From Colwellia sp. Arc7-D (GTDB taxonomy: Bacteria; Pseudomonadota; Gammaproteobacteria; Enterobacterales; Alteromonadaceae): DNA of 64,000 bases. The stretch's first letter is position 1. Every line of letters starts with the position of its first letter. Under the pieces are notes generated by a model. That model did not search any database. It was given only the letters and a program-made list of their open reading frames with translations, and was not told the origin of the DNA. The stretch lies in NCBI RefSeq assembly GCF_003061515.1, contig NZ_CP028924.1, forward strand, positions 2,232,001 through 2,296,000, given 5' to 3'. A program made the position numbers and the translations under genes. Below are positions 4,050 through 43,890 of this stretch, one piece after another.

Positions 4050-4053
4050 AATT

Positions 4054-11112: not shown

Positions 11113-11212
11113 AGTTTATATTTCTCTAGTAATCCATTATTTTTGAAAGGGCTAAAGTCCTTTTCATTAATTTTATCAAGTAAAGTTCATGCGCTAATCT
11201 GGGCGCTGTGGT

Positions 11213-11806: not shown

Positions 11807-11835
11807 TTATTTATCCCCGTTTCATTCCTTGAAAG

Positions 11836-21714: not shown

Positions 21715-22776
21715 TCAATCTAATTTATCAAACAGAAGTCTATAGTTTTCATTTTCTAGTTGAAGTTTTGGCTTTGCGGTTTTTCCCGTTTGAAAATTAA
21801 ATGCGAAAGAAGGTTGAGTAATGACAAAGTGGTAAGCCAGTATCGTAGGAGTAAAAATAGAGTGTGGATTAAAGAAACTTGGATTATTTGCGCTAGGAGT
21901 TTTGAAAAAGTACCCGCTTCCCTTAACATCGTCAAATCTGATTCCTTTTTCGGTAAAGCAATATGAAGAGGTAAATGTTCCGCTTACTTTTCCATTTGGA
22001 TTCAATTCTAGTTTTAATTCTTTTACCGAATCCACATTAATACCCTGTTGGCCATTTTTAGGTTTAACATAAATTGAAGATAAGCCCCAAGTTACACCTG
22101 ATTTTAGGTGGCTACCAATATGATTTTTTGGAATAGACAATGCGTCGACCTTTTTGATGATCTCATTTACATGTAGGACTTGTCCTTGATTAGAATTTGA
22201 TCTTGATAACAAAATCCCTCTCCAAATGCTCTGATTACCTAAGACTGGTGAACCAGACATACCCTCGTCTAATGAAGGAGAAGCTATCCTAAAAAACTTT
22301 GGATTATCATAATAGTCAAAGGTCATTAACTCAGACTCTACTTTCTGGAATGTTGTAGTAGCTGCACCTGAAAAACCTAAAATTGTAGACTTTTCCCTAT
22401 CCCTACAAAAACGTGTTCTACCAAGCTCTACGGAGAGCATCGGAGAGCTCTTTAGAGAATCATTTTTTGGTACTCTTATAAAGGATAAATCTATATCTTT
22501 AAAGTTATTTAATACCTCACCACCTAAAATTTCTATTTTCTCAAATTGCGGAAAATCGGTATAGTGATAAAAGTAAAAATACACATTTGAAACGTCAATC
22601 TCATCAATGACATGCATTGCAGTGGCCAAATAAACAAATTTATCATCATGACCTACAACTACCCCGTTTCCATTAGTAGACATATCACTACTTTGAATCT
22701 TGACGACTGACTCGACATTAGCACTGGCTTGAGTGAAGATGAATATCAAGAGTAATAAGCAAATTTTATTTTTCAT
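21715..22776 (-). CDS. Secreted trypsin-like serine protease
   Basis: 353 residues with a Sec signal peptide (residues 1-19, cleavage likely after A-S-A). The chymotrypsin-fold triad is visible: His55 in T-A-M-H-V-I-D, Asp96 in D-I-D-L-S-F-I and Ser174 in E-G-M-S-G-S-P. The protease domain spans about 20-215. The C-terminal 135 residues are an unrecognised beta-rich extension with a Cys in S-S-Y-C-F. It is the third gene of a minus-strand operon, overlapping the preceding membrane-protein gene by 11 bp. A periplasmic location is likely. The substrate is unknown. Confidence 0.85.
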   Translation of the reverse strand: MKNKICLLLLIFIFTQASANVESVVKIQSSDMSTNGNGVVVGHDDKFVYLATAMHVIDEIDVSNVYFYFYHYTDFPQFEKIEILGGEVLNNFKDIDLSFIRVPKNDSLKSSPMLSVELGRTRFCRDREKSTILGFSGAATTTFQKVESELMTFDYYDNPKFFRIASPSLDEGMSGSPVLGNQSIWRGILLSRSNSNQGQVLHVNEIIKKVDALSIPKNHIGSHLKSGVTWGLSSIYVKPKNGQQGINVDSVKELKLELNPNGKVSGTFTSSYCFTEKGIRFDDVKGSGYFFKTPSANNPSFFNPHSIFTPTILAYHFVITQPSFAFNFQTGKTAKPKLQLENENYRLLFDKLD

Positions 22777-23722
22777 TAGTAAATTTTACCAAAGTCAACG
22801 TGAATGTAATTAGCACAAATATAGTATTGAAGATTATGAGTATAAAATTATTCTTCGCAAAGAAGTAAAGATAGTTTGGAATTATGTTTGTTCTATTTGA
22901 GCCATATTCAATACTAGATGTATGCCCTTCTAAAACTACATTTATTGATCCATTTTTAATGAACAAGTCTGTGATATAAAAAATGTCACTTGCCTGAAAA
23001 TAGAGGCGAGAATTTTTATGAATATTGATTTTTTCTCCTATGCTCAATACTTCAATAATTCCAGACTTGATAGAGGGTTGCAAAGTTTCATTTATCAACT
23101 GATTAATATTAAGATGATCTATTTTAATAATTTCACTCTCCATAAGCCCTGATGCATCCTCAAATCTGAAACTCATGTTAAATTTTTCATCTGACGGCTT
23201 AACTATAATTGCACCACCTTCAGGGATCTTTTTTTCTTTAAAAGTATTAAACCTATAAGACGAATCATTGTTTATAGGATGGAAATCAAAGGATGACTCA
23301 ATATTCTGAAATTGAATACTCACTTGCTCTACTTCAGATTCAAATGATGAGAGCTTAATAATCGCTCCTTCTGGAATATTCAGTTCATTTACGGATACAT
23401 TTCTCAAGCTAAGTCTATCACCAATGTCGGTTGAAATTTTGTTGTCTGCTGCCGACTCCCCTCCAATAGACGATTTGCGAGCTTCAAATACAGAAAAATT
23501 CTGGACATAAACGTCGTTTTTATCAATTGTTCTGCTCAAAGCGAATAAGTTATTCAGATCATTCCGAGTTTCAAAAGAAAGCGTTTCGACCTGAAGTGTT
23601 ATTAGCACGTCTGATCTTTTGTTAAATAGGCTAAGTGCTGCAACAATCATCACCACGATGATAACAATGGCGAACAATAGTGGATATCCTGGTTTTAGTT
23701 CAATTGATGTCATATTCAGCAT
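22766..23722 (-). CDS. Hypothetical membrane-anchored protein, two transmembrane ends
   Basis: This 318-residue protein has one hydrophobic helix near the N-terminus (about residues 13-32, P-L-L-F-A-I-V-I-I-V-V-M-I-V) and one near the C-terminus (about 290-312). Between them is a roughly 255-residue beta-rich domain without recognised motifs, predicted extracytoplasmic. It overlaps the upstream gene by 23 bp and the protease gene by 11 bp, so the three products probably act together. I do not recognise the family. Confidence 0.7.
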   Translation of the reverse strand: MLNMTSIELKPGYPLLFAIVIIVVMIVAALSLFNKRSDVLITLQVETLSFETRNDLNNLFALSRTIDKNDVYVQNFSVFEARKSSIGGESAADNKISTDIGDRLSLRNVSVNELNIPEGAIIKLSSFESEVEQVSIQFQNIESSFDFHPINNDSSYRFNTFKEKKIPEGGAIIVKPSDEKFNMSFRFEDASGLMESEIIKIDHLNINQLINETLQPSIKSGIIEVLSIGEKINIHKNSRLYFQASDIFYITDLFIKNGSINVVLEGHTSSIEYGSNRTNIIPNYLYFFAKNNFILIIFNTIFVLITFTLTLVKFTNEK

Positions 23723-24458
23723 GGTAAAAAGGATATTTGTAGGTTGATTTTCGATTATTAGACCAAGTAATGTTTAGGGTTAATTCGTAGAAACCTTTGT
23801 CCATCTCATCTGTATTGAGATCAAGGTTAAAGGTAGATGAGGCAAAAAGATCTGTTATCTCTCCGCTAAGCGTTTCCTGACTCTCGTTAAAAACAATATA
23901 TTTAATAGATTTGATATTAGCAGGAGTGAAAAAATGTAGGACATAAGTTTGTTCTTTGTTAACTTCAGCATTAATGCCATTTTTTCTCAACAATATAGGT
24001 AAATATGTTCCATCATTCAATGTAGCCTCTATTCCTAAATTTCTGGCTCTGATACCGTGTTTATCCAGTACATTATTTACTGACCAAGGCTCAAATACAC
24101 TCCAACCTTTCTTATAATGTGTTTTTTTGACTTCCATCTGATAATTTACATCGTTTTTTACAATGTTATTAGCAGTAATTCGCGCCTTACCTTTCTGCGG
24201 TAAATATATGTGTAACTTTAGTAAATCGCCCTTTGAATATGAAGCCAGTCGAGATTGAGTAAAAGATACAAGGCGAAAAGAGCCTGATACGTTTTTCTGA
24301 ACTATAGCTTCCCAACGATTGCCCTGTTTTATATTCTTATCAATTTTTAGCTCAACTGCATGAGTAACGCCAATATTTACACTGATAATTACAGCGATTA
24401 AAAATAAGCATTTAGTTATCAAAATTGTTGGTGAATTTCTATTCATTTTACTAACCAT
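23700..24458 (-). CDS. Hypothetical secreted protein
   Basis: 252 residues with a signal peptide after a short basic start (M-V-S-K-M-N-R-N; hydrophobic core about 13-32, likely cleavage after T-H-A). An in-frame second Met (M5) could also be the start. The mature part is beta-strand-rich with no cysteine pairs, resembling secreted Ig-like folds only in general character. It is the first gene of the three-gene operon ending in the serine protease. Function unknown. Confidence 0.65.
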   Translation of the reverse strand: MVSKMNRNSPTILITKCLFLIAVIISVNIGVTHAVELKIDKNIKQGNRWEAIVQKNVSGSFRLVSFTQSRLASYSKGDLLKLHIYLPQKGKARITANNIVKNDVNYQMEVKKTHYKKGWSVFEPWSVNNVLDKHGIRARNLGIEATLNDGTYLPILLRKNGINAEVNKEQTYVLHFFTPANIKSIKYIVFNESQETLSGEITDLFASSTFNLDLNTDEMDKGFYELTLNITWSNNRKSTYKYPFYHAEYDIN

Positions 24459-27194: not shown

Positions 27195-27267
27195 AATGAT
27201 AATTCTCACAACATCCATCACTGAGACAACACTTTAGTGTTCATATATAGATTATCAATTAATTCAA

Positions 27268-27294
27268 AAAAAGTGAGCGCTTGGCTCACTTTTT
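27268..27294 (+). terminator. Rho-independent terminator after the 97-aa gene
   Basis: An 11-bp stem with AAAAAGTGAGC and GCTCACTTTTT arms and a 5-nt loop, followed by T-rich sequence. It lies about 75 bp after the stop of the upstream gene and could work in both directions. Confidence 0.8.
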
Positions 27295-27342
27295 AATCTT
27301 CATTATTAAAAACCCAATACAGCAACAATAAACTGCCAATTG

Positions 27343-27366
27343 TAGTTTCAGTTTCAGTTTCAGTTT
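27343..27366 (+). repeat. Short hexanucleotide tandem repeat (GTTTCA)
   Basis: Three to four copies of GTTTCA followed by a T run, in the otherwise empty 27,195-27,541 intergenic region. It is too short to interpret. Confidence 0.6.
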
Positions 27367-27541
27367 TTTAGTACTGTATTTAGGTAAATATAAGCACTTA
27401 ACGATGTTAATAAGTCGGTTCTTTAAACGTTAATAATCTGACTATATATAACTTCACTTACGCCCACGTATTTTTAAACTCCATAGATAGTGAATAAAAA
27501 ACTATTAAGGCAACTATTTATTAATTAAGGTATAAAAAATT

Positions 27542-27898
27542 TCAACCTTTAGTTAAGTGCCAGCCACTCCCCTTTCTACAAGGATATATTTCTAAATCAG
27601 TATCGCGCACGTGAAGTATATACTTAGCGGCGTCATAAGCTTCATCGAATGAAAAATAAGTTTTTTTGGGTTTGCCACTCCTCCCGATACAACAGTCAGC
27701 TTTGTTACGAGCTCTAAGTCGAGGACGAAGTGGTGTTCCTAAAGGATTATACTTACAATACTCATTTGACGATAAGTTAATATTTGGATTATGAGCGGAA
27801 TCCCCCTCAGCTGAATGAATAGCAGTTTCATTGAATTCCCGAGGGAGATATTGCTCTAACATATGCGCAAAACATGATTCATTTTTCATAATTAGCAC
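27542..27898 (-). CDS. Hypothetical small protein coupled to viperin
   Basis: 118 residues (or 115 from the M4 start). The C-terminal half carries K-A-D-C-C-I-G-R-S-G-K-P-K-K and I-Y-P-C-R-K-G-S-G-W-H-L-T-K-G. The last motif (Y-x-C...G-W-H-L-T) occurs in small Zn-ribbon-like proteins found in phages and islands. The start overlaps the viperin stop region by 20 bp, which implies translational coupling and a role as its partner. It is the last gene of the CHAT-viperin operon. It is not a nucleotide kinase, the usual viperin neighbour. Confidence 0.65.
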   Translation of the reverse strand: MLIMKNESCFAHMLEQYLPREFNETAIHSAEGDSAHNPNINLSSNEYCKYNPLGTPLRPRLRARNKADCCIGRSGKPKKTYFSFDEAYDAAKYILHVRDTDLEIYPCRKGSGWHLTKG

Positions 27899-28820
27899 CT
27901 TCGTTAATTAACACAACTGGTTCAATAGGTAGATAACGAGCTTTGAAGACTGCTTCGTTAAAGTTAATTTGCTTTAATGCGTTTGCTGCACCTATTTTAT
28001 TTATGCTATCACTGTATTTATAACCAGAGTTCCTTGATGAGTTTTGATAAAAACACCCCTTAGGATCAATCATTAAATATGATTCAGTCATAGCTATATT
28101 AGATTCAGCAAATATTGGTAAACCTGCATTACTGTGTTTATCTACAAAATGATTAAATTGTTTATTGGAAATAAGAAGGCTATCTTCACCATATGGCATG
28201 ACCTGTAATGCCTTCCATTTATAGGGCCTAATTTCTGATATTAAGCTAACGAAATCCTCTTGCCAGTTAAACTTATTGACCACAGTATTAATCTTTGTTT
28301 TAAGACCTTGTTGTGTACTTGATAGCTTTTCTAATGCTAATTTCAAACCATCAGAGCTTAAAGAGTTTCCTTTTCTATCAATTCTCCCTATTTGACGCCT
28401 AACATCATAATTCTGGCTATCAAAGCTAATCCCAACCATATCCAATACATTATTAGGAAGGTCAAATTTATTATTTAATAAATAGTGGCCGTTAGTGATA
28501 ATTGAGGTTTTAAACCCTTTTTGTTTAGCTAGCATCAGAACAATTGAAAAGGTACTACCCAACATCATTGGCTCACCTCCTGCAATATTTAACCGAACAT
28601 TTTCATAGCTAAGCTTCTGTTTTAAAGGTGAATTCCCTTTAATAAAGAAGTCCGCTAGGTTATTCAATAGTGCTTCTATAGCTTCAAGAGAGCGATGTAA
28701 TTCATTAGGTTTACCCCACTTGGCGAAACAGTAATTACAGCTATAATTACACGCTTCCGTTATGTGCCAGTTGATAACTAACTCTCTAATATGTGTATTT
28801 TCGATATTGATTGATTTCAT
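27879..28820 (-). CDS. Prokaryotic viperin (radical SAM antiviral nucleotide synthase)
   Basis: 313 residues with the viperin signature throughout. The radical SAM cluster motif is C-N-Y-S-C-N-Y-C-F (Cys24, Cys28, Cys31), preceded by N-W-H-I-T-E-A. Then follow N-I-A-G-G-E-P (79-84), I-I-T-N-G-H (107-112), D-M-V-G-I-S-F-D-S (127-135), I-G-R (144-146), K-I-N-T-V-V-N-K (176-183) and K-W-K-A-L-Q-V...G-E-D (201-212). Family knowledge: viperins remove the 3' hydroxyl of CTP, GTP or UTP to make 3'-deoxy-3',4'-didehydro nucleotides that terminate phage RNA synthesis. The stop of the 115-residue gene and this ATG share one base (TAATG), with GGAG upstream. Length is normal for pVips. Which nucleotide it uses cannot be read from sequence. 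Confidence 0.92.
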   Translation of the reverse strand: MKSINIENTHIRELVINWHITEACNYSCNYCFAKWGKPNELHRSLEAIEALLNNLADFFIKGNSPLKQKLSYENVRLNIAGGEPMMLGSTFSIVLMLAKQKGFKTSIITNGHYLLNNKFDLPNNVLDMVGISFDSQNYDVRRQIGRIDRKGNSLSSDGLKLALEKLSSTQQGLKTKINTVVNKFNWQEDFVSLISEIRPYKWKALQVMPYGEDSLLISNKQFNHFVDKHSNAGLPIFAESNIAMTESYLMIDPKGCFYQNSSRNSGYKYSDSINKIGAANALKQINFNEAVFKARYLPIEPVVLINEGANYEK

Positions 28821-29167
28821 TACTCAGCTCCTAGCAGTGAACAGTTAATGAATTGGAATATTTTTATAATTTTCCGCTCATCGCTCCGATAGTTAAAAAG
28901 CTGATAAAACATATTACTAATGGTATACATTAAGGTAAGTCGATAGTTTTTGATCACGCGAAAACGTACTAAAGAATTGTTACACTTTACTTTTTGTGGG
29001 CTTGAACACTTATATGACTTAACTAGTTTGATATCGTTTGTTAAATTTACTGATTTTAACCGAGGCCAATTCAGAAAATTTTTCCAAACATGAAAATTAG
29101 GTAATGAAATCGAATTAGCAAGCTTTGACTGTTCAATTGGGAGTAAAGCATTTGTAGATGTAGACAT
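28820..29167 (-). CDS. Hypothetical protein upstream of viperin
   Basis: This 115-residue basic protein has two cysteines in Y-K-C-S...K-V-K-C and one near its C-terminus. No motif recognised. Its start lies 3 nt after a hairpin that contains the likely ribosome binding site (29,171-29,197), and its stop overlaps the viperin start, so its translation probably controls viperin translation. It could be a genuine partner or mainly a translational leader. Confidence 0.55.
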   Translation of the reverse strand: MSTSTNALLPIEQSKLANSISLPNFHVWKNFLNWPRLKSVNLTNDIKLVKSYKCSSPQKVKCNNSLVRFRVIKNYRLTLMYTISNMFYQLFNYRSDERKIIKIFQFINCSLLGAE

Positions 29168-29170
29168 TTT

Positions 29171-29197
29171 GGAGCACCTTTTTATTGTTGGTGCCCC
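29171..29197 (-). promoter_or_regulatory. Hairpin sequestering the RBS of the viperin-side genes
   Basis: On the transcript GGGGCACC pairs with GGTGCTCC (8 bp, one G-U pair) around an 11-nt loop. The 3' arm includes the AAGGTG ribosome binding sequence and ends 3 nt before the ATG at 29,167. This places a translational switch between the CHAT half and the viperin half of the operon. It is not followed by a U-run, so a terminator is unlikely. Confidence 0.55.
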
Positions 29198-29233
29198 TAT
29201 ACGCAGGTGAAAGTAATTTTTTTCGCTTTTTAT

Positions 29234-29812
29234 TTATAAAGGTAAAAGAACAACACTCGCAACTGATTTAGCTTGACTTAAAATAGACTCAAAATCATTA
29301 CCAATGCAATCACCCTCAACAAAAGTTAGTAATACTGCTCCTTCTTCTGGCTTAAAGCACCAAGAATCATTTGAGCTAATCACTCCATCACCTTCATTAT
29401 AAGAATAAAAAATATTAATAACGGTATCACTCTTAAAACTAATAGAGGTAACGTTATCTAGTTCAACGATTTGTTGCTTTCCCCATTTAACTTCAATTGA
29501 TAAAAAACTATCTTCATCTGAATGCGAGTCAGCACTCAAAACAGCACTAAACGGTTCGTACCCAGAACTGAAAATACTAATTAATGGTGAGTTGATGTTC
29601 TTCTTGGTAAAAGACTTTACCTTTTTATATTTAAATATTATTGCTGGCCACTTTACAGCTAAGCGACAAAAAGCATTTAAATGTTCTCTACGATTTATTG
29701 CATCAGCCCATTTTTCTTCGGCGTCAGGCTGACGTAAAAGTATCTCCCAGTTGTCGTCGGCAACTTCAAGGCCTTGTACCATTTCATCCAAAGATAACTG
29801 ATCAAGTCTCAT
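29234..29812 (-). CDS. Hypothetical protein in the CHAT-viperin operon (192 aa)
   Basis: This acidic soluble protein of 192 residues has a helical N-terminus (residues 1-75) and a beta-rich C-terminal part (80-192), ending V-A-S-V-V-L-L-P-L. No family recognised. It overlaps the upstream 309-residue gene by 4 bp (ATGA), so the two are co-translated. It is followed by 66 bp containing the RBS hairpin. Confidence 0.65.
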   Translation of the reverse strand: MRLDQLSLDEMVQGLEVADDNWEILLRQPDAEEKWADAINRREHLNAFCRLAVKWPAIIFKYKKVKSFTKKNINSPLISIFSSGYEPFSAVLSADSHSDEDSFLSIEVKWGKQQIVELDNVTSISFKSDTVINIFYSYNEGDGVISSNDSWCFKPEEGAVLLTFVEGDCIGNDFESILSQAKSVASVVLLPL

Positions 29813-30738
29813 GATACCTGCTCCATTAATAAAGATGGCTTAACTTTTAGCTGTTTCAGCTTTTGTACATAGTCTGAATGACTAGGATCATTTTTATTTA
29901 TTTCATATACATCAAGTACCGCACTCTTGGATATGGATTTAAACAACGCACGAATGATAAAATCTTTGTCTTCAGTTTCAACATATATTTCATTAAATTT
30001 ATCAATTATACTTTTAATAGTTTGTCTAATTTGAGTTTTAGTGTGGTGACTTTCTTTATATCTAGCTACGTACTGCGGACGATTACTACCTTTTACTAAG
30101 TACTTATTTTCATAAAGTTCGACTGTGCTCAGGTGTTCTCTAATATTAAAAAACAAATACAAGAACCTAAAAGAGGCATCTGCCTTATACCTTGTTTTTT
30201 GTGTATCAGAAACATCATTGTCTATTTCTAATTCGCAAGGACTCTCTTCTATAAAAGACAACTCATTTAAGAGCTTTTTATTAGCTGACAGCCAGTAACC
30301 TATCAAGTCTGCTGCAACTTTTTGGTTAAGTTTATTTAGGTTTATCGCTAACTTTTCTAACTGTAAATCTATATGATTTTTTTTAATTACTATAGGCTCA
30401 GGAATCTGTTCTGGTGATGTCTGCTTATTTGTTCTATTTCCGGTATAAATCATTCCAGCCGATTTATATTTTACCCAGAATGCTAGTTGGCTAAACAAAG
30501 TTATATCTTTAGGGATTCCATTAGGTAAGCTTTCGACGTTAAAGTGCACTCCGTTAAACAAGTCTATGATCTTAATAACCGCTTTACCCTGAGTCTGAAA
30601 TGTAAGAGATATTGTTTGCTCATCGAAATTTTCTAGGGCCTGCTCAATAACCAACTCGATTACTAGTCGATTTTTATTTACATACTCTAACCGCCCATCA
30701 TAAGTCCAATCAGTAATTGGTAAGTCATTATCTTGCAT
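29809..30738 (-). CDS. Hypothetical protein in the CHAT-viperin operon (309 aa)
   Basis: A 309-residue soluble protein. The N-terminal 95 residues are beta-rich, followed by a Pro/Thr-rich linker (about 100-115) and a long helical region. No catalytic motif was recognised. Overlaps (11 bp with the CHAT gene, 4 bp with the next gene) indicate one translational unit. By analogy with other TPR-CHAT loci it may be a substrate or adaptor of the protease. This is inference from position only. Confidence 0.65.
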   Translation of the reverse strand: MQDNDLPITDWTYDGRLEYVNKNRLVIELVIEQALENFDEQTISLTFQTQGKAVIKIIDLFNGVHFNVESLPNGIPKDITLFSQLAFWVKYKSAGMIYTGNRTNKQTSPEQIPEPIVIKKNHIDLQLEKLAINLNKLNQKVAADLIGYWLSANKKLLNELSFIEESPCELEIDNDVSDTQKTRYKADASFRFLYLFFNIREHLSTVELYENKYLVKGSNRPQYVARYKESHHTKTQIRQTIKSIIDKFNEIYVETEDKDFIIRALFKSISKSAVLDVYEINKNDPSHSDYVQKLKQLKVKPSLLMEQVS

Positions 30739-33448
30739 TTTTAATAAAGCCTGCCTGCAAATTCATTTGTGTAATTAGGGTATTCACCTTTTGCTGTTGG
30801 TCTGAAGAAAGTTCCGATCTTGGGATGTATTTATTTTGCTGTTCACTGATACCGCAAAACCGCATACCGCTCCACGCAGAAGGATGCTTTAATGATCGTT
30901 CCAATAAAGCCATATCTACATTAGGTGCTTTAAAATTTCGTGCAAGTATCGGCCCCATAAGTGCTCTTAACTCCTGATTTTCAGTATAATTACATTCAAG
31001 CATTTTAAGGTACTCTTTTTCACCAAGGGTAGTAATTTTATTCAACTCTTCGTCAACACCACTTTCTATCCACCAGCGTTGCGCCCTTAACAGAGCTTCA
31101 GATGCGCTCATATTATTATTTTTAAGCTTATCGTATTTTGCTTTGATATGTGCAGTAACCAACTCAGGGACAGCCCAAAGCGAACCTATCGCAGTTTTAG
31201 CTCCTGACTCTAACATCCTCATATCCATACCAAAGGGCTCATTTACCTGGCTAGGTAAAAAATGCAGAGGAATATTAGAGCCACTTTGACAAGCCCAAAA
31301 CTCTATACGCTCAGCCCCACGAACGCTATGCAGCATATCAGCATCTCTAACAAAATAATTTTCAAACAATAGCTTAGGTCTATCTGGGTGTTTATGCTCA
31401 CAATGGCCATAAAAACTAAAAATATTAGACTGATATAACTGATGCAAAAAATCATTTTGAGATTCAGCAACTTCAGTCAAAATGTTGTCATGAAGTGCTA
31501 ATTTATCGAATAATGTATCACCACCAACAACACTGGTAATAGTAGTTTTATCATCATAATATTTGACTTGTTCATACAAATACATCAGTGAAGGCAACCA
31601 GTTTACCTCATTGACCAATTGATAAAGTTTTTCACCTGTTTTACCTGTAGCCCCCCAAGGTATATGCGAAGCGAAAAATGAAGGAAGCAAACAAACTTTG
31701 TGTAAGTGGCTAGGGAGCATCAGTTTCCAATCAATAAATCCTAAATCCCAATCGGTATTAACTTCTTTATGATCGGTAACAAATGCAGCAACGTTATTGA
31801 TAAGGTTTTTAGGTAAGTTAAATAAATATCCTCTGGCCGTGATTTGATTATTTTGTAAATAGGCAACAATTACCAATACATCATTATAGTGATCTTCAAT
31901 ATCTATTTTAACTAACACTTGATCTGGGTGAGTATTAATAGCCTCACGTAAATCATTCAATGTGATTTGATAAGTACGCTGCCTGTCTTTTACGTAATCT
32001 GTATCTAATCGATCTATATATTGTCCTAATATTTTGAAATCCCCCAAACATAAGCTAGCTTGTTGCTTTAAGAAATCTAAAGGGTTCGAGGCCCTGCTAG
32101 AAAAATCAACTATGTTGGCATATTTAGAATCATTAAATATTTGTACATCTTCATTGTTCGTTTTTTGAGACCTTTGTGATTTTAGTAACTTCGCACTATC
32201 AGAAAGATAATTATGTAACTGCGACTTGTTCACATGGCTTGCCATAAGCGCAATTTCATTCAAACCATAATAAATGCTACCTAATTTTCTTAGCGCACCT
32301 AATAGAACTTGACCAACAGGGTCTTTAATATGAAGCCAGCACAAACTAGTACTTTCACAAAAGCGCATCGCACTAGTATTTTCAAGTGTAATAAATGCCT
32401 GTATACATTTTTCTTTTTTTACTAACACACGTGCTAAACCAGAACTAGCTTGTTGAATTAATACGCCCACTCTATCTGACTCTTGGTCCGTCTCAGTTGA
32501 TTGTCGACCCACCATCAGTGAATGTACCTTTTTTGATAATCTGTCAACATTTTCGGGATTACTATCTTCATCAGCTTCTTTTACAAGAAGCTGAATCTCT
32601 ACGATTGGATTTGATATATCTACATGGGGATTCACTCTCATCATATCTAATGGGTCAAGTCCAAATACTAATGCCATTTCCAAAGCTGATTTACAAAGTT
32701 CTTTGTGTTCTTTGCTTTTAGATAAGTGTGTCAACTTAGATATAGTTAGAGGTATTATTTTGTCTGGTTTCAAGGACATTTTACTATTTAAATCTGAGAC
32801 AGGAAAGTTTGATTGACACCAGTCAATTGCCTCTTTATAGCAAATGAATGCTTTGGCTTGAGAATCACAGGCTTTTTCAGTTTTATCTATATCGAACAAA
32901 GTTGCTGCTAAATTTAAATAAATGATTGAAAGCTGGTTCAATCGAATAAAAGCTGGTATGGATCTTTCAAGCACTTTGAGAGCTTTCCGATGTAATTCCT
33001 CTGATTTTACTAAACTTTCTTCTCGGCTAAGGTACCACAATTGTTCATTAGCCGCTCTTCGGTATACAGCAGCTAATTGAGACAGGCTAGAAGCATATTT
33101 GTCAGGGAATTGTTGGCGTTGTTTATTTGCAATCGCACGAGAAAAAAATGAAGCTGCTTTATTTAGATTTGAATGAGGCGCCCCAGGTAAGCGCGCAAAG
33201 TGCGTAAAATAAAACACACCTAAATCATGGCATGCAACAGCTTTGGTATATTCATTATTAGTAGCTAAAGCTAAAGCTTTCTCAAAGCAGCGTTGCGCTT
33301 TTTTCAGCCCTAACTTATCATCAAAAGCATTCGTTAACTTTATACCTTCGGTATTATATTTATGGAAACTAGGCTTTATCTTATGATTAAGCAACTCAAA
33401 TTGTTTTCGAGCATATTCATCAAACTCCTTTTGACTATCAAAGTCCAT
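30728..33448 (-). CDS. TPR-CHAT caspase-like protease
   Basis: This 906-residue protein has an N-terminal half of TPR-like helical repeats (for example G-L-K-K-A-Q-R-C-F-E-K-A-L-A-L-A and Y-T-K-A-V-A-C-H-D-L-G-V). The C-terminal CHAT domain (about 560-830) has the catalytic pair His682 in F-Y-G-H-C-E-H and Cys720 in F-W-A-C-Q-S-G-S, then the family's G-A-K-T-A-I-G-S-L-W-A-V. Family knowledge: TPR-CHAT proteases act in phage defence, for example the Craspase partner Csx29 and gasdermin-activating proteases. First gene of the operon, with its own upstream region of about 360 bp. The absence of a gasdermin-like or Cas7-11-like gene nearby makes its trigger and substrate open. Confidence 0.88.
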   Translation of the reverse strand: MDFDSQKEFDEYARKQFELLNHKIKPSFHKYNTEGIKLTNAFDDKLGLKKAQRCFEKALALATNNEYTKAVACHDLGVFYFTHFARLPGAPHSNLNKAASFFSRAIANKQRQQFPDKYASSLSQLAAVYRRAANEQLWYLSREESLVKSEELHRKALKVLERSIPAFIRLNQLSIIYLNLAATLFDIDKTEKACDSQAKAFICYKEAIDWCQSNFPVSDLNSKMSLKPDKIIPLTISKLTHLSKSKEHKELCKSALEMALVFGLDPLDMMRVNPHVDISNPIVEIQLLVKEADEDSNPENVDRLSKKVHSLMVGRQSTETDQESDRVGVLIQQASSGLARVLVKKEKCIQAFITLENTSAMRFCESTSLCWLHIKDPVGQVLLGALRKLGSIYYGLNEIALMASHVNKSQLHNYLSDSAKLLKSQRSQKTNNEDVQIFNDSKYANIVDFSSRASNPLDFLKQQASLCLGDFKILGQYIDRLDTDYVKDRQRTYQITLNDLREAINTHPDQVLVKIDIEDHYNDVLVIVAYLQNNQITARGYLFNLPKNLINNVAAFVTDHKEVNTDWDLGFIDWKLMLPSHLHKVCLLPSFFASHIPWGATGKTGEKLYQLVNEVNWLPSLMYLYEQVKYYDDKTTITSVVGGDTLFDKLALHDNILTEVAESQNDFLHQLYQSNIFSFYGHCEHKHPDRPKLLFENYFVRDADMLHSVRGAERIEFWACQSGSNIPLHFLPSQVNEPFGMDMRMLESGAKTAIGSLWAVPELVTAHIKAKYDKLKNNNMSASEALLRAQRWWIESGVDEELNKITTLGEKEYLKMLECNYTENQELRALMGPILARNFKAPNVDMALLERSLKHPSAWSGMRFCGISEQQNKYIPRSELSSDQQQKVNTLITQMNLQAGFIKNAR

Positions 33449-33812
33449 TTTTAACCTACCTATATTGACGCTAGCATTTTACCATTTAGCTATTTATTAC
33501 TTCGAATACTATATAATAATCTACAACTTATTATTTATTAAGCTTTTTTTCGTTACTTAATTGTATCCAGTTAGAGGCAATGCAATAGGGACATATACAA
33601 AAAAGCATCTAGAAACAACTTCATGATTTAGGCTTGATGCGTAACTGTTTATAGCGAAGAAAGTGGATAATAATACAATATGAATATTTTAATAATCCTT
33701 TACCTTATATCTAAACCTTCTTATTTATATCGGAAAAGAAGTATTATTTATTGTGAATTTTATCTTCATGATTATATTTTAATCTAGCTTAATTATTCAT
33801 AATTTCAAATAC
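33449..33812. other. Intergenic region upstream of the CHAT operon
   Basis: 364 bp of AT-rich DNA between two minus-strand operons. It should contain the CHAT operon promoter and the end of the helicase transcript. No clear hairpin, operator repeat or gene was seen. Confidence 0.4.
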
Positions 33813-35300
33813 TTAATTTTCACATGAGACTCTACTCAAGGATTTAAGAAACTTTTCATTTACCAGGTCACCCTGAATATCAATTACTAAGGTTTCTTGT
33901 TTGAAGCGACCAAATATATTTACTGATTTTTCATAAACCTCAGTAAGTGGGTTCTTAGCATAGACAACATTTTCTTGAAAGAGACTTTGCTCAGGCTTAA
34001 AAAAACTTAAAACAGGCTTTTTCGTATTCACTGGATAATTTCCTATTTCTTCAATCTCATTTGCTTCTCGGTCTATTAACTGATTACATTTTTTTAGCTT
34101 AGTTTTGAAGTGTGAACTTATTTTCTCAAACTTTATAATGTCTGCTCCATTTGGTAAATCCCGACCTATTCTATAAGCATACTCAACGAGCTTTGGCTCC
34201 GCAGGCATATACAAAACAGCACTTTGATCCGCAGAGCTAGTCACCCTTAAAATTCGCCCCAGAATTTGTCTATAATGCATCTCAGTTTTTATATTCGTTA
34301 AGTGGCAACATATCTGCAGCCTTGGTATATTGGTACCTTCCGAGACCATACCAACACTAATCAACCACTCATCTGAATTATTACGATAATTACGAATTAG
34401 TTGGTTAGGATCATCTTCTCTATATGTTACCACTACTGCAGCTTTATTTAATTTATCGTGTAAAATTCGCTGGATTTTTTTAGCGTGCTGTATCGAATAC
34501 GCTATGATTAAACCACCTGCGTCTGGGTTTGTATTTCGAATAGATTGAAGCCGTTTATTTGCTCTAGTTATCAACTGAAGTATGACATTTTCATCATTAA
34601 TAATAATATGATAAGGCAAAATTTCTTGTGAAAGTAAATCTAAAAAACTGTTAAAAGATAAGTTTTCTGATTTATCTACTACTGAGATACTGTCATTATC
34701 AATGGCAATTATTTCCGGTACTCTACAAACACCGTCTTCTATAGATTTCTTTAACCCATAACTGTAATCACAAATAATTTTATTGGTTAAGTTGCAATAA
34801 TTGGACAAAACTATGGGGGTTTTATCTGATCGCCAAGGTGTACCTGTTAGCGCAATTGTGTAAGTTGCTTGATCTTTAATATTTTCAATAATTTTTTCTC
34901 CCCAAGCATTTGCATTTTCCAACTTTGTTCCTGAGCAGTGATGAATTTCATCAAAAATGACGAATACTCTAAACTTTTTAAATAACTCCCAAAAATTTTC
35001 ATCAACATGTAGTAAATTTTGATAAGTCGAAACCAACCCTGATGACCCCAGTAAACCATCAAATCGAGATTTTAATTTAAGAGATAAGCTTTCTTTGAAG
35101 TCACTAGCAACAATTGTTGATGGAGCAAGACAAACTACTAAGTCAATCATATCCTTCTCAATTAACTTATCAGCTAACGAAGATGACATGTGTGTTTTCC
35201 CCGCCCCTGGTGTTGCTAAGGCTAAAAAATGTTTAGAACCTAACAAGTATTTACTAAAAGCTGTTTCAATACACTCTTGCTGCCATAACCTTAACTTCAT
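33813..35300 (-). CDS. SF2 DEAD/DEAH-box helicase
   Basis: A 495-residue helicase of the ResIII/UvsW-like type. Walker A is P-G-A-G-K-T at 31-36 and the DEAH-like box D-E-I-H-H is at 117-121. Motif III is L-T-G-T-P-W-R, and motif VI is in Q-I-L-G-R-I-L-R. The final ~110 residues match nothing recognised and hold no nuclease motif. It lies 2 bp after the winged-helix gene and shares its promoter. A defence role is suggested by context; a role in island DNA metabolism is equally possible. Confidence 0.85.
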   Translation of the reverse strand: MKLRLWQQECIETAFSKYLLGSKHFLALATPGAGKTHMSSSLADKLIEKDMIDLVVCLAPSTIVASDFKESLSLKLKSRFDGLLGSSGLVSTYQNLLHVDENFWELFKKFRVFVIFDEIHHCSGTKLENANAWGEKIIENIKDQATYTIALTGTPWRSDKTPIVLSNYCNLTNKIICDYSYGLKKSIEDGVCRVPEIIAIDNDSISVVDKSENLSFNSFLDLLSQEILPYHIIINDENVILQLITRANKRLQSIRNTNPDAGGLIIAYSIQHAKKIQRILHDKLNKAAVVVTYREDDPNQLIRNYRNNSDEWLISVGMVSEGTNIPRLQICCHLTNIKTEMHYRQILGRILRVTSSADQSAVLYMPAEPKLVEYAYRIGRDLPNGADIIKFEKISSHFKTKLKKCNQLIDREANEIEEIGNYPVNTKKPVLSFFKPEQSLFQENVVYAKNPLTEVYEKSVNIFGRFKQETLVIDIQGDLVNEKFLKSLSRVSCEN

Positions 35301-35302
35301 AA

Positions 35303-35827
35303 TTACAATTCTGCTCTTTTATTAATTAATGTTTCAATCGCTTTAATTTTACCGAGTAACCGCGAATTTTTTTCTCGAATACTATTATATTTTGGTTGAA
35401 GTTCATCATGCATTTGTGGGAATTCATTCCTAAGTGTACGATACTCTTCTGCTTCTCCTAATCCTTCTAAAAGATCGTTTTTATAGTCTTGTAACCTACA
35501 ATTTAGCTCTTGCATGTTTTCGAACAAAGTATGCGCAACTAGCTTATTTTCATTGTCATTTACTGATGAAGTTACTATTCGTGGTTTTAGATTAAACAGC
35601 TCTGTTTTAACATAACTTATTAATCCTTTTTTTTTCGACGTGTTCTTCTTCAACCACCCTTTATTGACAAGTTTTTTAAGTTCAGCATAAACAAATCTTC
35701 TTGATTCTGAAGCCGACATTGTGCATTCAGTGTTTAAAATCATATATGCAGTTCGAATTTCGACTGTAGAAAAATGATCCAGTTTAGGATTTGATACTAT
35801 GACTTTTAACGTCTCATCTAACTTCAT
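35303..35827 (-). CDS. Winged-helix and coiled-coil protein, helicase partner
   Basis: 174 residues. The N-terminal ~75 residues look like a winged helix (F-S-T-V-E-I-R-T-A-Y...S-A-S-E-S-R-R-F-V-Y-A-E-L-K-K-L-V-N-K-G-W-L-K-K). The C-terminal part is a coiled coil (about 95-170). It is the first gene of the two-gene helicase operon, with three candidate operators directly upstream. Probably a DNA-binding specificity or regulatory subunit. No named family recognised. Confidence 0.65.
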   Translation of the reverse strand: MKLDETLKVIVSNPKLDHFSTVEIRTAYMILNTECTMSASESRRFVYAELKKLVNKGWLKKNTSKKKGLISYVKTELFNLKPRIVTSSVNDNENKLVAHTLFENMQELNCRLQDYKNDLLEGLGEAEEYRTLRNEFPQMHDELQPKYNSIREKNSRLLGKIKAIETLINKRAEL

Positions 35828-36460: not shown

Positions 36461-37093
36461 TTATTTAGTAAGTTCTAAGAGTAATTGATACTCAACCGCA
36501 TGGAGAATTACTTCATCGCTCTCATCAATAGCACACATTTTTCTTCCAAACTTTTTAAATTTAATTTCATCCGCTTCTAATAATCTCGTGAGTGCCATTT
36601 TTTGTTCCTTAGCAAGTACTGATGATTTAATGACATCAACGCCACCAAGGTCATTAACTGGTTGATTTAGGGTTTCAGCCAAATCGAACACATTTTTAGA
36701 AGTGAAATTATCCTCTAATATCTCAATCTGTTTTAATAATATCTGGAGTCGCTTTTCCAGCCCTTTGCTATAAATAAGTAACTCTTTATGACCCAGGATT
36801 TGATTAGATGTGGGAATCCCCTGATTTTGATCAGATATACATTCTTTGTATTTATTTATTAATGGTTTATAGACGTTTAATGAGTCATTGTTGATAGTTC
36901 CTTTTGTTGGCTTTAATTTTGTTTGCTCAATGTAATCCCCAACATTCACAAAAGATAATTTCAAATTTTTTTTTATCAAGTGCTCACAAGCTTTTGAAAC
37001 ATTTCTTAAACCAACTTGAACTCTCCTATCTTTGAGATCTTCCCTATCTAATAAACATTGTAAAAACCTTTGTGCTTGAATTAACTGACTCAA
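36461..37093 (-). CDS. gmtX: Candidate gamma-mobile-trio protein GmtX
   Basis: This 210-residue, mostly helical protein has no catalytic motif that I can see. The N-terminus (A-Q-R-F-L-Q-C-L-L-D-R...V-G-L-R-N-V-S-K-A-C-E-H-L-I-K-K) resembles an HTH-like helical domain, followed by a coiled coil around 110-150. The name rests on place: the third gene, 15 bp after two large tyrosine recombinases, as in gamma-mobile-trio modules. The assignment is from gene order and size, not from residue-level recognition. Confidence 0.6.
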   Translation of the reverse strand: MSQLIQAQRFLQCLLDREDLKDRRVQVGLRNVSKACEHLIKKNLKLSFVNVGDYIEQTKLKPTKGTINNDSLNVYKPLINKYKECISDQNQGIPTSNQILGHKELLIYSKGLEKRLQILLKQIEILEDNFTSKNVFDLAETLNQPVNDLGGVDVIKSSVLAKEQKMALTRLLEADEIKFKKFGRKMCAIDESDEVILHAVEYQLLLELTK

Positions 37094-37107
37094 ATTATTA
37101 TTCCTTT

Positions 37108-40100
37108 TTAATTTTTTAATTTTTTAATTTTTATTTTATCTGCTAATTTCATTACTTCTCTATCAGCAGAAATTAGGTGCTTTTTAATCTTCAGGAGATC
37201 AGAGTTATTTAATGTATCTACTAGAAACCTTGCATCATTAAACTCTTCATCAGTAAACGCTCTTCCGATATCCTCTACAACCCCTTGAATCTTATATAAA
37301 ATTGCAGCTCTTTTAACTTCGTCGTCTGGTTTGAATATTAAATTATCCGCGACACCTGCAACTGTAGAGACTTGAGTTAAGAACTTCTTGAGTTTCTTGA
37401 AGGAGATTGTATCTGAATTTAAGTTGACCCCTAAAACCGCACCCTGAGTAGTAACTTCCATTGCTCCTTCAAAAGCACTTAAATTTTCATAGCTATTAAT
37501 TCCTTTAGGCATTTTATTAAAAACATCCAGTTCTGCTGTCTTAGTTGACTCTAGTCCTGATACTCTGAAGGTTTCTTCGAGCATAGCTTGTCTTCTGGCG
37601 AATTCTTGAACATAGGAACTAGATATAACATTAATATCATCGACTTCTTTACTGTAGTTAGCGGCCATAAACTCAGGATTTTCAACAGTAGAGTCGTTGT
37701 AAGCGTCTTTAGATTTATTAATCAGGGCTGTCCTTTGTTCGGCCAGTTCTGATATTTTTAAAACTACTAAATTAAAATGATAAATTTGTTCTAAAATGAA
37801 CCTAGGACCACTTTTCCAATAGCGGCAATTACCACATCTCATAGCCCCTTGCTCAAGTTGTTTTATCTCGTAGACCTCCTGACCTTTGAAGTTTATATAA
37901 GATGTTAATCCTCCATATGCACAAGAATACCCAAAACAAATACCCCCACCAGCAAGTCTTGCAATAGATTCAACTTCTTTAGTTCTGTTGGGATCTCCAA
38001 TATTTTTGGCATCTTCATTTTGCCACTCTGGTACTAAACCAAAGTTGCATATTAATGTTTCACCCTTTCTTAAAAAGGCTAATTCATTTGTTTGGGTTGC
38101 CCCTTGTTTATTCTGTGCTTGAATGAGCAATTCTTTCATTTTTTTAGCTTCAATTTTTTGATAATAAACGGTCATAATTGCTGTTGCATGGCCGACTAAC
38201 ATTTGAACAACTTTTTCATCCACTCCTTTATTTAATAAAGTGGAAATACCAAAGACTCGTAAGCCGTGTAAGTCATAAAGAGCTGTACCGTCATTTTTGA
38301 ATAATACATTTTGATTTTTTAGTTCTGGGAACTTTAACTTAATTATTCTATCTGTTTCTTCAAGTAATAATTTGAAATAACTTCTCAATTCGTCTGCACT
38401 AATTGGTAAATACAAGTTATCTCGAGATTTATACTTTTCTTTGTTGACAGATGTCATCGCTGATAATCGTACTTTACGAGGATTTCGAAAAAGAGGTGTA
38501 AAGTATGGAAGATCATCCCACACACTAACATCATAATATCCAGCGTTCTCATCTGTCGTCTTTACTGGTTTAGTCACACTTGCTGGACAATATTTATCGT
38601 TCCACGTTTTCTGGCTTTCGATAATGTCATAAACTTGTTTAAAATGCCCATCTGCCCCCTCATAAGGCCAAGGTATTTCGTAACCTGTTTCGCCTGCTCT
38701 TTGAGCTTTTTCAGATTTGGTTTTATTTGTACTTATGTATAAACATAAAGCTTTATTTTTTTGACCATAGGGGTTAAAAATAACTCCTGTATTTCCATGT
38801 CTAGACTCATGATTTTTACCATCCTCATAAACGTAATTAGCGAGTGGACCATTGTTTTTCTTGTATTTTTGAGTTTTAAAGTCCCATAGTTCAGAGTCCA
38901 TAAGCCCTTCATCAAGCCATCTAGCCTGTTTACCACGCAAAGGAACTAAAAGTAATAAATGTATAATTCGAGCGCAATGGGGTCGGAACTTCATTTCCAT
39001 TTCTTTTGTTTGGTGGTTTAATAATGAACTTGTAAATCGTTGCTGACTCTTAGCAAAGGCGTAATCATTCTCAGTCGCAACGCTAAAAAGCTCTTCATAC
39101 ACATAAGAAGGTATGAGTCGCCTGTGAGTTGAGCATGGTACATGCCGTTCCCCTTTGAATAATTCCTTAACTGGAGGTATGGGATTGTTTATTTTAGCTC
39201 TTAAATTTGTCGATTCTAGCTTTGCCCACGTTTCTAGAATTTTAAACGCTACACTCCATGTTGCTTTTTGGTTGGATAGACTAATAACAGAGCCACTACT
39301 ATTTTTTTTCGATTTTATATATTCATAAAATGTGACACCTTTATACATATTGCCTGTAGGGTCGTATATCATAAAAGAAGATATGTCATGTAGTGTATTA
39401 ATTTTATCAGGAAGACTTATAATCCATTCTGCAAAAGTATTTATATTGTTAGCCTTATTCGAATTACTCGCCTTGTTTGCGAATCTAGACATTTCACCTT
39501 TAATTGAATTAGACAATTTACCTTCAGCCCAGCCCATATCAGGATTCTTTCGATTTTTATCAGCATTAATTAATCTTTTATGTGATAGAGGGTTAAGTTG
39601 TGATTTAGAAAATGGCTTATAATTCTTACGAGTATTCCATTCTGTATCTTTTTCAATTTGGTTTATAACTCTTTCAAAAGCTTTATAAGGTAGCCCTGTG
39701 CTAGTCACGTAATTTTGATTTGCTTTTTTTGCTTCAGACACTTTAAGGAAGTAATTTTCTGGTATATCACTAATACACTCAAAAGAATTATGTGCATTAA
39801 TCAGTTTAATTAAAGTCTTATTTTCTCTACCTAATGAACGTATAACCTTAACAAACGGTGTTGATTCTAAAAAGTCGTCCGAATGTTTGCGGTAGCTCAT
39901 TGAAGTAAAAAAAAAAGGAAAATATATAAGCTTTCCATCAACGCTATCGATTAAATTCAGCAAGCGAGGTAACCATTTGGCTCTTTGGTAAGCCTGATAT
40001 ACATAGTTTATGAAAGGGTTTCTTTTAGTTTTTGAATTAATAAAAAATTCATTAAAAGCCCCTTGCATAAACTTATGCCTTATACCTGTATCAGGATGCT

Positions 40101-40794
40101 CCATTTCTTTAAATTTATGATTATTAACCTTAGAGTCTTGTTTAAACAATGGCTGTGAAATTAGTAAGAAATGATATATTGGACTTGATTTTATTATATC
40201 TATATCGTAAACATGCTCAGCTTTAAACTGATCAGGCATATTAAAGCTTTTAGACGTACATATAGATAGCATCAAGTTAATAGCCGTTTCGTCATTAATG
40301 CCTTTGAAAGTATCTTCCCAATCAATCCAATACGGAGAAAAAGCCGTGTTTCCTATGGCGCTAGCAGCAGTAGCCTTATTTATCATTTCTAGGAAATCAG
40401 CGTTTTCAATATATGTTTCAATAACATTTAATCTTTGTTCAGAGTTTATACTATCAACAAATAGCCTTTTAAATTCAACCAATTCAAATGGATACAATGT
40501 GGCTTTAGCTGGAGTTTTCCCTTGTTCAATCAATGTGCACACGTTAAAATAAATTTGGGATTGTATTTTTTTGCAAGCGTTGTTTAATGCTTTACCTAAT
40601 CCAATAGTTCTAGAAATTACTTTCAAGGCAAATGGGTTTATAACAGCAATGTTTCCGGTAGGGTTGAAAAGAACCTCTTTATTTGACATGTAGCCAATAC
40701 CATTTTCTAAGATATTTAAGTCTTGGGATAGCGTTATATCTAAGTTATCAATCCAGGTATTAATGTTATTATTAATTATTTCTACTATATCCAT
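37108..40794 (-). CDS. gmtZ: Large tyrosine recombinase, candidate GmtZ
   Basis: A 1,228-residue protein with tyrosine recombinase motifs in its middle: L-V-P-L-R-G-K-Q-A-R-W near 620, H-G-L-R-V-F-G-I-S-T-L (HxLR) near 870 and V-G-H-A-T-A-I-M-T-V-Y-Y (H...Y nucleophile) near 895. A likely zinc cluster follows (I-C-F-G-Y-S-C and R-C-G-N-C-R-Y-W, near 960-1,000), then a helical C-terminus. It overlaps the upstream recombinase by 10 bp. Oversized recombinases paired with a second recombinase and a small protein match the gamma-mobile-trio layout. It would catalyse movement of the island. Confidence 0.7.
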   Translation of the reverse strand: MDIVEIINNNINTWIDNLDITLSQDLNILENGIGYMSNKEVLFNPTGNIAVINPFALKVISRTIGLGKALNNACKKIQSQIYFNVCTLIEQGKTPAKATLYPFELVEFKRLFVDSINSEQRLNVIETYIENADFLEMINKATAASAIGNTAFSPYWIDWEDTFKGINDETAINLMLSICTSKSFNMPDQFKAEHVYDIDIIKSSPIYHFLLISQPLFKQDSKVNNHKFKEMEHPDTGIRHKFMQGAFNEFFINSKTKRNPFINYVYQAYQRAKWLPRLLNLIDSVDGKLIYFPFFFTSMSYRKHSDDFLESTPFVKVIRSLGRENKTLIKLINAHNSFECISDIPENYFLKVSEAKKANQNYVTSTGLPYKAFERVINQIEKDTEWNTRKNYKPFSKSQLNPLSHKRLINADKNRKNPDMGWAEGKLSNSIKGEMSRFANKASNSNKANNINTFAEWIISLPDKINTLHDISSFMIYDPTGNMYKGVTFYEYIKSKKNSSGSVISLSNQKATWSVAFKILETWAKLESTNLRAKINNPIPPVKELFKGERHVPCSTHRRLIPSYVYEELFSVATENDYAFAKSQQRFTSSLLNHQTKEMEMKFRPHCARIIHLLLLVPLRGKQARWLDEGLMDSELWDFKTQKYKKNNGPLANYVYEDGKNHESRHGNTGVIFNPYGQKNKALCLYISTNKTKSEKAQRAGETGYEIPWPYEGADGHFKQVYDIIESQKTWNDKYCPASVTKPVKTTDENAGYYDVSVWDDLPYFTPLFRNPRKVRLSAMTSVNKEKYKSRDNLYLPISADELRSYFKLLLEETDRIIKLKFPELKNQNVLFKNDGTALYDLHGLRVFGISTLLNKGVDEKVVQMLVGHATAIMTVYYQKIEAKKMKELLIQAQNKQGATQTNELAFLRKGETLICNFGLVPEWQNEDAKNIGDPNRTKEVESIARLAGGGICFGYSCAYGGLTSYINFKGQEVYEIKQLEQGAMRCGNCRYWKSGPRFILEQIYHFNLVVLKISELAEQRTALINKSKDAYNDSTVENPEFMAANYSKEVDDINVISSSYVQEFARRQAMLEETFRVSGLESTKTAELDVFNKMPKGINSYENLSAFEGAMEVTTQGAVLGVNLNSDTISFKKLKKFLTQVSTVAGVADNLIFKPDDEVKRAAILYKIQGVVEDIGRAFTDEEFNDARFLVDTLNNSDLLKIKKHLISADREVMKLADKIKIKKLKN

Positions 40795-42221: not shown

Positions 42222-42273
42222 AGGACCCCCAATAATTATCTAGTATTATAAAAAAGAAAGTTAATTCTATGTT

Positions 42274-43431: not shown

Positions 43432-43890
43432 GTGAGTGTTTGTGTGTCTGCAAAAAAACTTATCGCTCGCGACGAAGCGCTTCATTTAACCGGCACACAA
43501 CACATGCTTAATAACTGGATGTCAGGTCGTGACGATCCAGAAATGCAAGAAATTGCCACTACATTGCGTGAAGAAGGTAAACAAATCTTCATGGACGTAG
43601 TAGAACAAGAAAAAGAATGGGCTGATTATCTATTTAAAGATGGTTCAATGATCGGCCTAAACGCGGCCATTTTAAAACAATACATTGAATACATCAGTAA
43701 TCAACGTTTAAGTGCTATCGGTTTTGATGCACCATTCGATATTAAAAGTAATCCCCTACCTTGGATGAACTCTTATTTAGTCAGTGATAACGTGCAAGTT
43801 GCACCACAAGAAACCGAAATTTCTAGCTATTTAGTTGGACAAGTTGACTCGTCAGTATCAAGTGACGACTTTGACGACTTCGATTTATAG
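43432..43890 (+). pseudogene. nrdB: C-terminal fragment of ribonucleotide reductase beta subunit NrdB
   Basis: From [19 protein letters not shown] onward, about 145 residues match class Ia NrdB, ending [10 protein letters not shown] with the usual acidic C-terminus that docks on NrdA. Family numbering: full NrdB has about 376 residues. The radical tyrosine and the first four iron ligands lie in the missing N-terminal part; only the last Glu/His ligands (E-A-L-H) remain. The fragment alone cannot be active. The first eight codons (GTG start) are island-derived. Since nrdB is normally essential, a complete copy, perhaps rebuilt at the island's other end, is expected elsewhere. Confidence 0.9.

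Follow-up and report, generated by a model that had tools for sequence, protein, structure and literature searches.

A four-gene CHAT protease core directly upstream of exchangeable radical-SAM enzymes: a candidate modular anti-phage cassette in Colwellia sp. Arc7-D

PADLOC, a collection of known and candidate defence proteins, includes prokaryotic viperin (pVip) and PDC-M51, a candidate that pairs a radical-SAM enzyme with a thymidylate-kinase-like protein. We take PDC to stand for phage defence candidate. To our knowledge, PDC-M51 has no reported function, and the open-licence literature, which leaves subscription papers and preprints mostly outside its coverage, does not name it. According to the available part of Gerdes 2024 (PMC10865869), viperins make chain-terminating nucleotides, and relE and hicA genes lie adjacent to pVip genes. 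In Craspase (type III-E; Csx29 TPR-CHAT, Csx30 and CASP-sigma), the TPR-CHAT protease cuts an inhibitor encoded beside it, as described in the accessible portion of PMC10028731. In this study, we analysed a stretch of 64,000 nucleotides from Colwellia sp. Arc7-D (contig NZ_CP028924.1; hereafter the window), in which a CHAT protease gene and a viperin gene lie in one putative six-gene operon. We found that four genes of this operon form a fixed core and that the radical-SAM effector immediately downstream of it is exchangeable, being viperin in some loci and PDC-M51 in others.

The locus resembles each of these systems in part. Its effector is a pVip, and its last protein, p118, is common to viperins with a divergent ankyrin-repeat partner (PADLOC PDLC02908); the partner here, however, is a protease core and not an ankyrin protein, a kinase or a gene trio. 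The PDC-M51 pair fills the same slot in five related loci. As in Craspase, a CHAT protease lies beside small possible substrates, but p309 and p192, two of the small proteins, match no sigma-factor model, and the Csx29 chains in the PDB were matched neither by single sequence (E up to 10) nor by profile (E up to 1). Cas7-11/gRAMP and a CRISPR array were not found at the locus in a PADLOC scan of 20 window proteins and a repeat scan. The Cas-labelled PADLOC models were matched by two helicases and a WYL protein only, and the other open reading frames (ORFs) above 150 amino acids (aa) in 21.7-43.1 kb have another assignment or, where scanned, no Cas-like Pfam match. Caspase-nuclease (canu) and the Hachiman/AVAST protease-nuclease pairs (PMC12799240, part of the text) likewise combine a protease module with an antiviral output enzyme and were acquired recurrently; their output is a DNase proenzyme, whereas here it is a radical-SAM enzyme with no visible pro-segment. 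Gerdes 2024 places a RelE-type gene beside viperin, as far as the available part goes, but here the RelE-like gene is part of a protease core found before a non-viperin enzyme as well. The available text of PMC12799240 mentions neither viperin nor CHAT, the available main text of PMC10865869 mentions neither CHAT nor caspase, and in the accessible portion of PMC10952713 viperin occurs in the reference list only. No title or abstract in the open-licence literature, among the matches listed, describes a CHAT-viperin pairing, in line with the initial annotation of this DNA, which had called the combination a system not yet known. The position of the conserved CHAT core before either of two radical-SAM enzymes suggests an undescribed, mix-and-match immune system in which the protease controls or backs up a nucleotide-poisoning enzyme.

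The operon and its recurrence

All six ORFs lie on the minus strand at the coordinates first given for them (27542-33448). In order of transcription, with the site beyond the last gene, the features are:

30728-33448, minus strand: CHAT (caspase-like) protease, 906 aa; Pfam CHAT above cut-off
29809-30738, minus strand: p309, 309 aa, all-helical core subunit; undescribed family with 37 relatives besides itself
29234-29812, minus strand: p192, 192 aa, core subunit; undescribed family with 20 relatives besides itself
28820-29167, minus strand: p115, 115 aa, ParE/RelE-like core subunit, divergent in the window copy; PF24732 in 11 of 12 family members
27879-28820, minus strand: prokaryotic viperin, 313 aa, in the effector slot; NF038283 and PADLOC pVip
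27542-27898, minus strand: p118, 118 aa, viperin-associated, Cys-containing, ending in GWHLTK; nine-member alignment
27268-27294, listed on the plus strand: terminator-like palindrome downstream of the operon; consensus scan

The tight packing that had been noticed at the outset is real: the successive junctions are an 11-bp overlap, a 4-bp overlap, a 66-bp gap, a 1-bp overlap and a 20-bp overlap. A consensus scan of 27200-33900 found no terminator-like site between the operon genes; the one such site on the minus strand lies inside the CHAT ORF. Promoter-like sites in the same scan were fewer than in shuffled sequence (21 vs 28).

Searches with p309 revealed the genes for CHAT, p309, p192 and p115 in identical order in 12 of 12 loci. 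This recurrence indicates that the arrangement in the window is more than chance. The loci fall into two types:

Viperin-type (7): the window; L003, L004, L006 and L077 from Shewanella; L007 from Alteromonas portus; L005 from Colwellia demingiae
PDC-M51-type (5): L008 from a Moritella metagenome-assembled genome; L009 from Vibrio sp. J1-1; L018, L019 and L073 from one genus, taken here to be Vibrio

The spacing between p192 and p115 is 62-73 bp in the 11 core loci measured. The L003 reading frames are broken, CHAT into three pieces and p192 into two. The gene after p115 is viperin in 7 of the 12 loci, followed by p118 in six of these seven (not in Colwellia demingiae). In the other five, a radical-SAM protein of 415-422 aa and a thymidylate-kinase-like protein of 207-214 aa take its place. 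Hence, the CHAT and viperin halves are not private to this genome, and the pairing extends to four Shewanella loci, Alteromonas and Colwellia demingiae. The refuting condition set with the initial annotation, a co-occurrence confined to one genome, therefore does not hold, and its interpretation is supported. Not visible from the window alone was that viperin occupies a slot, which the radical-SAM/kinase pair fills in five loci; moreover, p118 follows viperin and not CHAT.

In PADLOC, the two slot proteins of L008 match PDC-M51A (570 bits) and PDC-M51B (258 bits), and PDC-M51A reaches 631-639 bits in the three genomes of L018, L019 and L073. The slot of L009 was assigned to PDC-M51 through 95% identity to enzymes of the L018/L019/L073 type. 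Since the PDC-M51A model matches all of 222 and all of 11 genomes, together with 11 of 14 controls, it was counted at scores of at least 570 bits only. In the genus of genome G561, 3 of 222 genomes score at least 630 bits, the next best match there being 52 bits, and these are the same three that carry p309 (of 226). Of the 11 Moritella-type genomes, three reached at least 570 bits; one of them has the core and the other two have viperin. PDC-M51 does not occur in the window. By profile, the slot radical-SAM protein is closest in the PDB to CysS (73 bits) and TokK (49 bits), both cobalamin-dependent radical-SAM methylases; its match to a B12-binding domain is weak (15.3 of 32.1 bits). Its distance from viperin is large (about 17 bits), so that a single core precedes two different radical-SAM enzymes.

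The core is rare. p309 was found in 2 of 395 genomes of the window's own family, 5 of 394 of the order and 1 of 158 of the class (the window's own alone), as well as in 3 of 226 genomes in the genus of G561 and 4 of 117 in the genus of G462; these counts overlap, several matches being the same genomes. The p309 scan of genome contigs yielded seven loci. In the protein collection, the p309 relatives with an organism name come from Shewanella, Photobacterium, Alteromonas, Pseudoalteromonas, Colwellia and Vibrio. Among 60 relatives, the CHAT protein found itself and one marginal match at E 1e-3. Searches of viral contigs with p309, CHAT (single sequence and profile), viperin and PDC-M51A yielded no confirmed relative, and tblastn searches of plasmids with p309 and CHAT gave no match.

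The CHAT and viperin identities given at first sight are borne out by curated cut-offs. The CHAT domain (PF12770) scores 34.4 bits against a cut-off of 24. At the N-terminus of the same protein, TPR_12 is weak (23 bits against 30.1), as are the repeat-protein matches in a profile search of the PDB (E 0.03 and 0.13). His682 (in YGHC) and Cys720 (in WACQSGS) are invariant in all 11 aligned CHAT rows, the window included, and are, by analogy with other CHAT proteases, the predicted catalytic dyad of the window protein. Viperin scores 328.6 bits with NF038283 (cut-off 180) and 356 bits with PADLOC pVip, and solved viperin structures match it with a best E of 1.7e-23. Its radical-SAM motif CxxxCxxC reads ACNYSCNYC and is kept in 6 of 6 aligned sequences.

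Three or four of the small proteins had been regarded as unknowns. This view stands for p309 and p192 and falls for p115, as PF24732 (ParE_like) is recognised in 11 of 12 p115 family members at E 0.01 or better. The window copy is the sole exception, with no family match at E 0.1 and 22-35% identity to p115 of the other viperin-type loci. p309, p192, p118 and the window p115 stay below every Pfam and NCBIfam cut-off and have no PADLOC match; CHAT, p309 and p192 match no PADLOC model even at E 0.1. Structure prediction, proposed along with the initial annotation, was run with AF2 for both new families. The p309 model is all-helical (pLDDT 80.8), and that of p192 comprises N-terminal helices and a C-terminal beta sandwich (pLDDT 76.0); structure searches with the two models returned nothing decisive. 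The p309 alignment (A1) holds 28 of 38 matches, and the p192 alignment (A2) holds 16 of 21 matches plus three loci.

p118 belongs to viperin and not to CHAT, because it also accompanies viperins of the ankyrin type. Among 22 other viperin loci, five (L051, L056, L059, L060 and L061) have an adjoining divergent gene for a protein of about 900 aa, which was the PADLOC Ankyrin protein in the four scanned, and p118 is present in three of the five (L056, L059 and L060). A phmmer search with p118 found itself alone, and its relatives came to light through gene neighbourhood. In the nine-member alignment they begin with MK[S/N][E/D], for which reason the true start of p118 is probably the ATG at 27889 (115 aa) and not the GTG at 27898. 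One relative has a weak DUF4379 treble-clef match (18.9 bits vs 24.5). Six further viperin loci (L058 at 6265-9446, L063 at 6339-9373, L052, L053, L055 and L057) have an upstream gene trio, judged by eye to encode a membrane protein, a small exported-looking protein and a third protein; this trio is perhaps another partner module.

Limits of the cassette and exchange of its modules

We aligned the DNA of seven chosen within-type pairs of loci, L005 and L008 not among them. Identity per 300-bp window ranges from 50 to 100% across the cassette. In 7 of 7 pairs, similarity stops beyond p118 or the kinase, where identity drops to the 37-45% of alignment noise, and in 5 of 7 pairs it starts at CHAT, with 36-47% upstream; in the pairs L018/L073 and L009/L018, it extends up to about 1 kb further upstream of CHAT. 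Since the limits of homology coincide with the ends of the cassette, the recurring unit is the cassette together with its effector.

Within this unit, core and effector have partly separate histories. In DNA, the window matches L004 and L006 over a stretch that opens a little way into CHAT and runs almost to the end of viperin, and the window's CHAT, p309, p192 and viperin proteins are 61-70% identical to those of either Shewanella locus. Compared with L005 from Colwellia demingiae, viperin is 80% identical and CHAT, p309 and p192 are 45-47% identical. A core tree of nine of the 12 loci (without L003, which has a broken CHAT and p192, without L073, and without L077, which was found later) rejects a group of the window and Colwellia (p-AU 8e-7). 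A viperin tree of 17 rows, made of the six CHAT-viperins then known and 11 of the 22 others, joins these two, with low support (79/71). It also rejects a group of the window with Shewanella and Alteromonas (p 4e-4), as well as a single clade of the six CHAT-viperins (p 0.004), which lie among the ankyrin-coupled L056 and L059. These tests were post hoc, as the groups were picked after the identities had been seen, and some supports are low; the trees indicate that viperin was exchanged into the core.

Exchange is also apparent at the PDC-M51 end. The loci L008 and L058 have common flanks, 92% identical over 2 kb on the left and 91% over 345 bp on the right. Both contain a radical-SAM-kinase-NYN cassette that is 95% identical and starts 12 bp ahead of the radical-SAM start codon. 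This common cassette is preceded by the CHAT core in L008 and by a 234-165-253-viperin arrangement in L058; L063 is laid out like L058. Judged from the aligned sequences, this is a natural swap of modules at one Moritella chromosomal site. The third gene of the cassette, downstream of the PDC-M51 kinase, encodes an NYN-LOTUS-cold-shock protein (L058 11546-12460, which was scanned; L008 13861-14775), the L008 copy matching that of L058 inside the 95% identical block.

How core and effector may work together

Viperin-type enzymes poison nucleotide pools, which raises the question of how bacteria restrain them until infection. Here, two undescribed families, a ParE/RelE-like protein and a caspase-like protease recur before two radical-SAM enzymes that are unlike each other; with the natural swap, this makes the control of such enzymes directly testable. 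The two enzymes behind one core, together with the swap, suggest a role for the core as a partner module, one that would sense infection and control or complement the effector. We regard as evenly balanced the proposition that the locus is a modular anti-phage cassette, in which an infection-sensing protease core would control an interchangeable effector of nucleotide chemistry. Infection would be sensed by the N-terminal region of CHAT together with p309 (and p192), and sensing would activate the protease. CHAT might then cut a partner within the core, p192 or p115 being the likeliest, and so release the output. The target would probably be such a partner and not the effector itself; direct processing is less likely because effectors are alike with and without the core. 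With viperin, the output would be ddh-nucleotides that end phage transcripts, as for the viperin family. With PDC-M51, it would presumably be another modified nucleotide, for which the kinase may supply the substrate or phosphorylate the product.

The sensor assignment draws on the CHAT protein itself. The three pairwise comparisons of L009, L018 and L019 give 93-97% identity for residues 601-800 and 39-79% for residues 1-600, which is how a diversifying sensor before a constant protease would look. p309 is 47% identical between L009 and either L018 or L019, and 89% between L018 and L019; in the pair L009/L018, identity is 88% for p192 and 95% for the radical-SAM enzyme.

Several observations weigh against this proposal. 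Mosaic exchange accounts equally well for the contrast between the two parts of CHAT, and the contrast is weak in other pairs (N-part vs protease-part, 83-90 vs 88-96% in L004/L006, 55-85 vs 71-89% in L006/L007, and 55-78 vs 63-81% in the window and L006). L018 and L019 keep p309 at 89% identity while CHAT is at 74%, and dN/dS is below 1 wherever computable among eight chosen pairs, which again leave out L005 and L008. The effectors have no evident CHAT-specific segment: CHAT-coupled viperins measure 306-315 aa vs 305-308 aa for ankyrin-coupled viperins in four loci (the longest ORF of the ankyrin-type L051 gives 360 aa), and L058, which lacks a CHAT core, encodes a PDC-M51 enzyme with 98% identity to the one in L008. 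Finally, viperin passes its cut-off in 24 of the 394 genomes of the order sample (0 of 14 controls), and the core accompanies it in two of them, the window's own and that of L006. Counts were restricted to the curated cut-off because the model at E 1e-3 is non-specific, matching 377 of 394 genomes and 14 of 14 controls. In the neighbourhood analysis of pVips suggested by the initial annotation, the core recurs with viperin in seven loci and is absent from 22 of the 24 genomes of the order sample that carry viperin.

A sharper form of the modular proposal, which we put forward tentatively, is a new class of protease-gated immunity. In this form, the CHAT core would switch interchangeable radical-SAM enzymes on, and PDC-M51 would provide a viperin-independent route to an antiviral nucleotide, formed from a thymidylate-like substrate by cobalamin-type radical-SAM chemistry. 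The recurrence of the core before both enzymes, with the swap, points to PDC-M51 as a candidate producer of another type of antiviral nucleotide.

We see a possible though not favoured alternative in a defence with two arms. The core would be an abortive-infection device, in which CHAT frees a ParE/RelE-like toxin from p309/p192; a first line of defence would come independently from the radical-SAM enzyme. The arms might travel together because they are complementary, or because the RelE-like protein senses chain-terminated phage transcripts and stalled ribosomes. In keeping with such a device, p115 goes with the core: it is present in 12 of 12 core loci, a p115 profile found it near viperin in none of the 22 other viperin loci (some on short contigs), and it was seen solely alongside the core. 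The ParE_like family of 11 of the 12 members, the persistence of the effector without the core, and the relE and hicA genes noted beside pVip genes (PMC10865869, available part) fit as well. However, the window p115 has no ParE_like match although its operon is intact, which speaks against an essential toxin. Independent arms would also predict cores without a radical-SAM effector, but none of the 12 is of this kind. Scans with Pfam, NCBIfam and PADLOC recognised no antitoxin family next to p115.

It is improbable that CHAT directly activates the effector by removing a pro-segment, in the manner of the protease-nuclease pairs in the accessible part of PMC12799240. A protease with an adjoining enzyme does resemble those pairs, but neither the lengths nor the 98% identity between L008 and L058 reveal a segment added to effectors that have the core. 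That the CHAT genes and viperin are separate systems stacked by chance in a defence island is close to refuted and very improbable, since gene order is kept in 12 of 12 loci, the limits of homology are common and the genes overlap, even though the window holds other defence genes (BREX and PsyrTA) and most viperin genomes of the order sample lack the core.

Genomic setting in the window

The other defence genes lie on the minus strand at 2289-13351 and encode WYL, BrxA, BrxB and BrxC (1372 bits) proteins, a 413-aa protein with a PDC-M72B match, and PsyrT (895 bits) and PsyrA (386 bits). On the other side of the operon, a set of recombinases at 36461-43140 is related to the gamma-mobile-trio, with GmtX, GmtY and GmtZ under their curated cut-offs (15 of 40, 96 of 340 and 149 of 600 bits), and is joined by a further tyrosine recombinase. 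A partial 3' copy of nrdB (class Ia ribonucleotide reductase beta) follows at 43432-43890. An nrdB-like frame of 388 aa ends at genome position 2218892, about 56.5 kb before the partial copy (matched at 43435-43887), the two being 92% identical over 144 aa. This arrangement suggests an island of about 57 kb that was inserted at nrdB and rebuilt the 3' end of the gene.

A ResIII-type helicase and a 174-aa protein adjoin the cassette in three of eight loci checked. The pair lies upstream and codirectional with the cassette in the window (33813-35827), and downstream and convergent in L003 (13231-15125) and L006 (13230-15124). Elsewhere in the window, a 1940-aa protein with DUF285 and TSP3 repeats is encoded at 14556-20378. 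A candidate CRISPR array at 15.8-16.1 kb was rejected, as it consists of 75-bp coding repeats inside this ORF. A three-gene run at 21715-24458, two proteins of which have no Pfam family, encodes a trypsin-like protease (Trypsin_2, 32.7 bits) with a weak match to LmuA.

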